NCBI GenBank assembly: GCA_902572475.1
Contig: CACGGB010000001.1
Span: 1 to 64,000, forward strand
Length of the DNA stretch: 64,000 nt
DNA from: an uncultured Pelagibacteraceae bacterium
GTDB lineage: Bacteria; Pseudomonadota; Alphaproteobacteria; Pelagibacterales; Pelagibacteraceae
Direction of reading: 5' to 3'
Made by a program: the position numbers and the translations under genes. Below the pieces are notes generated by a model, which was not told the DNA's origin, did not search any database, and saw only the letters and a program-made list of their open reading frames with translations. Positions 4,262-35,718 of this stretch are shown piece after piece. The stretch's first letter is position 1. Each line of letters starts with the position of its first letter.

Positions 4262-4345
4262 ATGGGTTATCCAAAAAAGCACCGAGGTAGAAGAAAAATC
4301 GGATCAAAAAAAAGAAGAGCTAGAAAAAGAAATAAGAAGAAATAA
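4262..4345 (+). CDS. 27-aa highly basic microprotein MGYPKKHRGRRKIGSKKRRARKRNKKK
   Basis: ATG preceded by AAGGAGG Shine-Dalgarno; intergenic between metC and a membrane protein gene; below the ORF-track size limit. Confidence 0.7.
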   Translation: MGYPKKHRGRRKIGSKKRRARKRNKKK

Positions 4346-4359
4346 TCTTTTAATATTTT

Positions 4360-5061
4360 ATGCTAGAAATAACTCAAATTAGAAAATTGAGTATTTGGAT
4401 ATTTTTAATTCCATTATTAGCTATAAATCTTTGTTTAATAATATCTCAAAATTACCAATTTTTAGAAGGTACGATATTCACAGTTGATCAAGTTGGAAGG
4501 TCGGCTTTTTCAATTCCATATCTTGATGGGAGTTTGTCTATAAGCAGAGCCTCAAGAACATTCCCACAATATCTAATTTTTAAACCTTCTATGATATTAA
4601 CAGCGGTTTTATTATATTATTATTGGAGAGAAAATAATAATTTAGTAAATAAATTTAATTCTTCAGACATAAATTTTAACTTTAAAAAATTTGGAATTTT
4701 ATCAGCAATATTTCTAGCTATTCATTCTATTTTTCTAGGAATAAAGTTTGATATTCAAATTTATAAGCTTTTTAGAAGAGTTATTTTATTGTTATTTATA
4801 ATTTTTGAACTTATAGCTCAAGGATTGCTCATTTATCATTTTTACAAACTTAAGAATAAATTAGATAAATTAATTAATAAAAAAATCTTATTCATAAAAG
4901 CTTTTCTTGTTTCAATATTAATAGTTATTGCGATTCTAAGTTTGCCAATACTCGTCACCAAAGGAAATACGCATTTCAAGCATGCGCTTGAATGGAATTA
5001 TTTTGTTGGTGTAGTATTTTTTTATTTATTATCTAGATTTTTTTGGAAGAGAACCACGTAA
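4360..5061 (+). CDS. Multi-pass membrane protein, unknown function
   Basis: 233 aa, several hydrophobic segments. Confidence 0.7.
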   Translation: MLEITQIRKLSIWIFLIPLLAINLCLIISQNYQFLEGTIFTVDQVGRSAFSIPYLDGSLSISRASRTFPQYLIFKPSMILTAVLLYYYWRENNNLVNKFNSSDINFNFKKFGILSAIFLAIHSIFLGIKFDIQIYKLFRRVILLLFIIFELIAQGLLIYHFYKLKNKLDKLINKKILFIKAFLVSILIVIAILSLPILVTKGNTHFKHALEWNYFVGVVFFYLLSRFFWKRTT

Positions 5062-5235
5062 ATTTCTAGGCTTTCGCCCAGAAATTTAGTAGTTTTGGCT
5101 CGTCGTTGTAGGCGCTACCGCCAAGCCATCCCGATGAACTATTCTAGCGCTACTAGGTTCACCTTTCTGCCCTTTAAGCTTGAACCTCTCGGTTTTTCCT
5201 TAAATGGCCAGTTAAGAGTTGCCTCTTAATTAATT
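5060..5235 (-). ncRNA. Candidate structured ncRNA, unclassified (3' of mnmA on the same strand)
   Basis: GC-rich island with nested inverted repeats: AAGAG-GCAA-CTCTT, GGTTCA/TGAACC, TAGTAG/CTACTA, TTGGC/GCCAA, AAATTTCT..GGC-GAAA-GCC..AGAAATTT; GNRA loops only on the minus strand. Confidence 0.6.
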
Positions 5236-5299
5236 TCATTAGAACATATAGTAAAAAATATTGTAATCACTTAATGCGTGTCTTAAAACTGGTTGTTAA

Positions 5300-6427
5300 T
5301 TAAGTGGATAAATTATTGTTTAAAGTCCTGTTTATCCAACCACCCCCGAGAACTTTATCCCCATAAGAATCTTTAGAGTAAAAAACACAAGCTTGGCCAG
5401 GCGAAATTCCAGTTTCTTTATCTAGAATTTCTACCTTTGCATGTTCATTGAAAAGATTAATTTTTGCTTTAAGTAATCTTCCAGTTGATCTTACTTTTAT
5501 ATTTATTATTTCACTGAATTCTTTTTTATCTGCTAGAATATTTAATTCTCTAAGTTGAATTTCTTTAATTTCTAAATTTTCTTTACGCCCTACAATAACA
5601 GTATTATTTTTTGCATTTATATTTACTACATATAATGGTTTATCACTTGAAATTTTTATCCCTTTTCTTTGTCCTATTGTATAATTAATAATTCCTTCAT
5701 GCTCACCAATTTGATTTCCTTTCAAATCAACTATTTTTCCTCTCTTAAATGACTCAGGTCTAAATTTTTTTATTACAGAACTGTAGTCTCCATTTGGAAC
5801 AAAGCATATATCTTGACTATCTGGCTTATCTGCTACATTTAAATTTAATTTTTTTGCAATAGATCGTGTTTCAGATTTATCAATTTCACCTAAAGGAAAT
5901 CTTAAATAATCTAGCTGCTCTTGTGTTGTACTAAATAAAAAATAGCTTTGATCTCTATTGTAATCTTTAGCTCTATACATACTTGCACGGCCATTTTTTT
6001 GAACTCTTGAAACATAATGTCCTGTTATTAATGCGTCTGCTTTTAAATCTTTTGCGTATTTAAATAGATCTCTAAATTTAACTGTTTGATTGCATTGAAC
6101 ACATGGGATAGGTGTTTCACCTGCTGTGTAACTATCAATAAATGAGTCGATTACCTCTGATTTGAACTTTTTTTGATAATACAAAATTTCGTGATTGATA
6201 TTTATTTTTTCTGAAACTCTTTTGGCATCCATTATATCTTGTCCTGCACAACACTGCCTACCTTCTTTGGACTGTTTTATATCATCGTAAAGTTTAAGAG
6301 TAATTCCTGTAACATCATAACCTTCTTGTTTCATCAAGGCTGCAACAACAGATGAGTCTACTCCACCTGACATGGCTACAACTATTTTAGTTTCTTTTTT
6401 TGGTTTATTAATTCCTAGGGAATTCAT
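5300..6427 (-). CDS. mnmA: tRNA-specific 2-thiouridylase MnmA
   Basis: [47 protein letters not shown], ITGxS-type C-terminal [11 protein letters not shown]. Confidence 0.97.
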
Positions 6428-35557: not shown

Positions 35558-35718
35558 ACCCCATCTGTCTATGTACCTGAGAGATTTAATCCTTCGGTGA
35601 GGCTTTCGCCTGCTTTCCAGAGTTATTACAGTAACGGTCCTTTTGCCTGAGAGTTTCCGGGGTGGTTGCTCCTTCGGCGCCTAAATGGTCTCTCCCGTTA
35701 CGCTGGGGACTCTCCTCT
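35558..35718 (-). promoter_or_regulatory. Tandem glycine riboswitch upstream of gcvT
   Basis: Minus-strand CGGGAGAGACC..GCCGAAGGAGCAA..CCGGAAACTCTCAGGCAAAAGGACCGTTAC then AACTCTGGAAAGCAGG..CACCGAAGGATTAAATCTCTCAGGTACATAGACAGATGGGG. Confidence 0.93.

Follow-up and report, generated by a model that had tools for sequence, protein, structure and literature searches.

A copy of the IMES-2 RNA gene in a Pelagibacteraceae genome: putative loop-loop helix, gene anatomy and host range in SAR11

We report that a GC-rich non-coding segment on the minus strand of a 64,000-nt stretch of DNA from an uncultured Pelagibacteraceae bacterium (hereafter the window) is almost certainly a copy of the IMES-2 RNA gene. 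The family itself is already known; what is added here is a probable loop-loop helix, the anatomy of the gene and its host range. IMES-2 was named from marine environmental sequence and is, to our knowledge, an orphan RNA of unknown function; a literature search found no paper describing it. The present analysis ties IMES-2 to particular SAR11 genera, proposes a fold that can be tested, and describes an upstream region as well as genomes with and without the RNA. Experiments on cultured SAR11 can now address what the RNA does. The RNA and its predicted hairpins are located as follows.

5095-5236, minus strand: IMES-2 RNA (RF02035, 157.1 bits, model positions 1-141 of 141)
5212-5229, minus strand: hairpin 1, with a GCAA tetraloop
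5167-5211, minus strand: hairpin 2, capped by a GNRA loop that reads GAGA in this copy, with an internal loop rich in A
5133-5163, minus strand: hairpin 3
5097-5127, minus strand: hairpin 4

The assignment rests on a cmscan match to RF02035 at 157.1 bits, compared to a gathering score of 54.7 (E 3e-41). Across the whole length of the model the window RNA agrees with the family in sequence and shares its four hairpins; nothing excludes its membership, and IMES-2 was the only one among the relevant Rfam families to match at 5095-5236. The earlier note, made from the letters of this DNA, had regarded the RNA as an unassigned class and had named a confident Rfam hit to a known class among the results that would refute this; the match to RF02035 is such a hit. 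The window's genome, which is 58% complete, contains one copy.

The description of this segment as a GC-rich non-coding island was borne out. The GC content of 5095-5236 is 45.8% versus 31.1% for the whole window, only 0.7% of 142-nt windows are equally GC-rich, and no ORF of at least 60 aa spans the segment. The earlier proposal of a structured minus-strand RNA also held: for 5060-5240 the folding energy is -62.1 kcal/mol on that strand (z -5.98 compared to shuffles) versus -49.8 kcal/mol (z -4.0) on the plus strand; in addition, the relatives covary. A published list of intergenic regions with high GC content in P. ubique HTCC1062 (Meyer 2009, PMC2704228) does not name IMES-2.

Covariation was evaluated on 67 distinct IMES-2 relatives with 500 shuffles as control and shows a predicted fold of four hairpins in series on the minus strand. 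Over 38 nested pairs, 96.6% of the cells were paired and 27 of the 38 pairs were changed on both sides, which none of the 500 shuffles reached; sliding the 38-pair structure along the alignment lowered pairing to 30-43%. Hairpin 1 was paired in 100% of cells, with three pairs changed on both sides. The corresponding figures for doubly changed pairs were 11/15 in hairpin 2, 8/8 in hairpin 3 and 5/8 in hairpin 4, the last of which also contains a non-canonical pair that is G-A in 62 and A-G in 5 of the 67 sequences. The minus strand is the right one, as had been argued before: 191 of the 2537 paired cells are G-U, which the plus strand would turn into A-C mismatches. The RNA does have GNRA loops, as noted earlier, with GCAA in 67/67 sequences in hairpin 1 and GNRA in 64/67 in hairpin 2, and the anticipated covarying helices in homologues downstream of mnmA were found.

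Several of the helices drawn earlier from the single sequence are replaced by the structure that the relatives support. Two elements were drawn correctly, AAGAG-GCAA-CTCTT, which is hairpin 1, and the 3' hairpin capped by GAAA; the pairing of TTGGC with GCCAA corresponds roughly to hairpin 4. The proposed GGTTCA/TGAACC helix joins arms from two different hairpins and is unconserved (58.7% of cells paired versus 57.5% in shuffles). Pairing of CTAG with CTAG holds in a subset of sequences and is lost elsewhere, its outer pairs failing in 40/61 and 47/61, and the relatives assign the TAGTAG and CTACTA bases to loop 3 and to the terminator stem. One copy (L109) departs from the family inside hairpin 3 and is truncated, chimeric or the product of an assembly fault.

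Loops 3 and 4 are complementary across the relatives in a way that is consistent with a loop-loop helix, and such a helix probably exists. Comparison of relatives places its two sides at:

5145-5150, minus strand: loop 3 side of the putative kissing helix, GCGCUA
5112-5117, minus strand: loop 4 side of the putative kissing helix, UAGCGC

This 6-bp helix was paired in 94.8% of cells and had 17 doubly changed cells compared to 2.7 in shuffles (reached by 0/500). Both sides were changed in three of its six pairs; the count of doubly changed pairs and the count of pair types lay within the shuffle range, and the first pair was absent in 11/67 sequences. GUACUA with UAGUAC takes the place of GCGCUA with UAGCGC in 5/61 sequences and occurs at three places on the mnmA tree (L087; L161; L033-L035 with L121). 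Another group of sequences has UCGCUG with UAGCGA, and in a further genus, g12, the loop cores AGCACU and AGUGCU are complementary, being neither identical nor palindromic. We consider the covariation support for the helix good, not overwhelming. A dimer formed through loops 3 and 4 would fit the data as well as a single molecule. The helix is missing from the RF02035 structure line given by cmscan, the comparison being with that line only.

Two neighbouring stems joined by a loop-loop helix are also found in the purine riboswitch, a kissing-loop fold. IMES-2 would resemble such folds in its neighbouring, loop-tied stems, but it does not act in cis on one fixed gene, and homology is not claimed. 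In L033, L034, L035 and L121, which are nested among normal genomes on the mnmA tree, the 5' half is of the usual kind and hairpins 3 and 4 with their kissing loops are L087-like. Because these two hairpins resemble those of L087, recombination within the IMES-2 gene is likely in these genomes.

Within SAR11, 71 of 151 relatives matched IMES-2, all of them in the window's genus; named records with the conserved 5' pattern were Pelagibacteraceae single-cell genomes and Ca. Pelagibacter MAGs. Among the genomes of the same genus listed without IMES-2, mnmA was missing or cut off, and incomplete assembly is therefore the simplest explanation for these absences. For an order-wide survey a search model was built from 61 distinct sequences. 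It detected IMES-2 in 204 of 398 Pelagibacterales genomes and 5 of 13 genera (75/151 when restricted to genomes at least 90% complete), and among the matches listed all were in the window's family. With relaxed filters a diverged copy was found in two single-contig g12 genomes (52.9 and 48.7 bits); the one tested against RF02035 scored 68.7 bits, above the Rfam cut-off. No match up to E 10 was obtained in the single-contig genomes G153, G155, G156, G157 and G160 or in G165, and G152, G162 and G163 gave noise only. Since the RNA is absent from several single-contig genomes, IMES-2 is not universal in SAR11. An exact pattern search gave 0 viral copies in IMG/VR. IMES-1, considered as a possible alternative to IMES-2 in SAR11, was not found above the cut-off in the 151 relatives, nor in the 398 Pelagibacterales genomes, where the search matched nothing anywhere and absence is thus unproved.

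As to function, we tentatively favour, as a whole chain of explanation that may well fail at one of its steps, a compact, Hfq-independent RNA that acts in trans through a bound protein. The kissing helix, if formed within one molecule, would yield a compact packed body together with hairpins 1 and 2 and their GNRA caps; this body would bind a protein, sequestering or scaffolding it, and its action would be neither Hfq-assisted antisense pairing nor that of a cis element of mnmA. A protein-bound RNA is preferred because helices, tetraloops and kissing loops contain most of the conserved bases. Hfq (PF17209) was detected in 0/16 SAR11 genomes with positive controls.

It is possible, though unlikely, that IMES-2 takes the place of 6S RNA in SAR11, binding RNA polymerase and tuning transcription. 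Searched at E values up to 10, neither the window's genome nor any of 21 SAR11 genomes matched the 6S model (RF00013), whereas it does match other Alphaproteobacteria and the controls, and IMES-2 resembles 6S RNA in size class and as a single-copy, strongly structured gene with its own promoter-like region. However, the four predicted hairpins stand in series, there is no long hairpin with a promoter-mimicking central bubble, and IMES-2 itself is not matched by the 6S model. A 6S-like role is weakened by this different fold and by several complete SAR11 genomes that lack both RNAs.

We likewise doubt that IMES-2 is an antisense sRNA whose loops 3 and 4 would be two copies of one motif pairing with target mRNAs. 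Both loops do read UAGCGC in most sequences, but where they differ they stay complementary and not identical, as in CAUCGC versus UAGCGA; the AGCACU and AGUGCU loops of g12, complementary yet non-identical, argue against the same motif occurring twice. The absence of detectable Hfq from the 16 SAR11 genomes also speaks against it.

IMES-2 very probably is an independent gene, judging from its neighbourhoods. The flanking features in the window are:

5300-6427, minus strand: mnmA (NF001138, 427 bits), the upstream neighbour, outside the RNA
5294-5311, minus strand: conserved double box TTATCCACTTAATTAACA, DnaA-box-like, overlapping the last mnmA codons
5263-5280, minus strand: conserved upstream block CACGCATTAAGTGATTAC, GTGAT-centred
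5238-5246, minus strand: extended -10-like element TGTTCTAAT, matching the TGnT....T pattern of the upstream flanks
5052-5094, minus strand: 3' hairpin, terminator-like in relatives; a hairpin of varying sequence lies here in nearly all copies
4360-5061, plus strand: converging 233-aa ORF that matches neither Pfam nor NCBIfam and overlaps the terminator-like hairpin at its 3' end

In the window's genus IMES-2 always follows mnmA at a spacing of about 70-90 nt, which is what one would expect if it were a product of the mnmA 3' UTR or acted on mnmA in cis. The association is constant there and absent elsewhere. The analysed flanks comprised 88 loci with mnmA upstream and 76 with other flanks, 11 of the latter annotated and the remaining 65 defined solely by the failure to detect mnmA, in some cases because the contig ends. 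A tyrosine recombinase lies upstream in all 11 annotated cases and a short methylguanine-methyltransferase-like gene downstream in 10 of them, the stretch of L108 ending first; in g12 the upstream gene is nuclease-like. IMES-2 thus occurs in at least three gene neighbourhoods that have the upstream block in common, with the 3' hairpin in nearly all copies, as expected for the independent sRNA that the earlier note had offered as one option. Its other option, an mnmA 3' UTR product, is very unlikely because relatives keep the RNA and the upstream block, along with the 3' hairpin, in neighbourhoods without mnmA. G152 has the recombinase-methyltransferase neighbourhood without IMES-2 and represents a natural empty site. 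At several loci, among them L086, L089, L096, L097 and L108, IMES-2 adjoins a conserved tyrosine recombinase beyond which the gene content varies and includes glycosyltransferase-like genes; recombinase-flanked loci possibly mark the edge of a hypervariable region.

The upstream flanks have conserved elements in common. The TGnT....T pattern was present in 85/88 mnmA flanks and 74/76 others, compared to 28 and 22 in shuffles, and GTGAT at about -45 in 87/88 and 76/76, compared to about 4 expected. The double box at about -85 was clear beside mnmA and looser in other flanks (strict pattern in 82/88 flanks with mnmA and 11/76 without, none expected); g12 has variants of the upstream elements at the same positions. 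A simple sigma-70 scan found no full promoter at the window copy. Downstream of nearly every IMES-2 copy the hairpin is usually followed by a T-rich tail; that of the window copy is weak, with no clear T run, and a simple terminator scan found no terminators in the window. That the region is part of a replication origin is most improbable: a double box of the type TTATCCAC..TTnACA does occur in most copies adjoining mnmA, but on a relative's 377-kb contig the cumulative GC skew minimum lies near 235-240 kb and IMES-2 at 99 kb, and the RNA sits at different loci in different genera. A regulon shared through the upstream block was rejected, as a scan of the window and of one 377-kb contig found the box pair with GTGAT at IMES-2 only.

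On a broader and rather unlikely view, the kissing-loop RNA could form a lineage-specific regulatory RNP of SAR11 lacking recognisable Hfq and 6S, possibly 6S-like on RNA polymerase, with the upstream block, the RNA and its terminator travelling together from locus to locus as a cassette.

Three minor observations were made. In L235 and L246 the stop codon of the upstream gene also lands on the double box. A 27-codon ORF at 4262-4345 (plus strand), preceded by GGAGG and without Pfam or NCBIfam match, encodes a very basic peptide, MGYPKKHRGRRKIGSKKRRARKRNKKK. Elsewhere in the window, a glycine riboswitch aptamer lies at 35625-35707 on the minus strand (RF00504, 64 bits); the glycine riboswitch is already known in SAR11 (PMC2704228).
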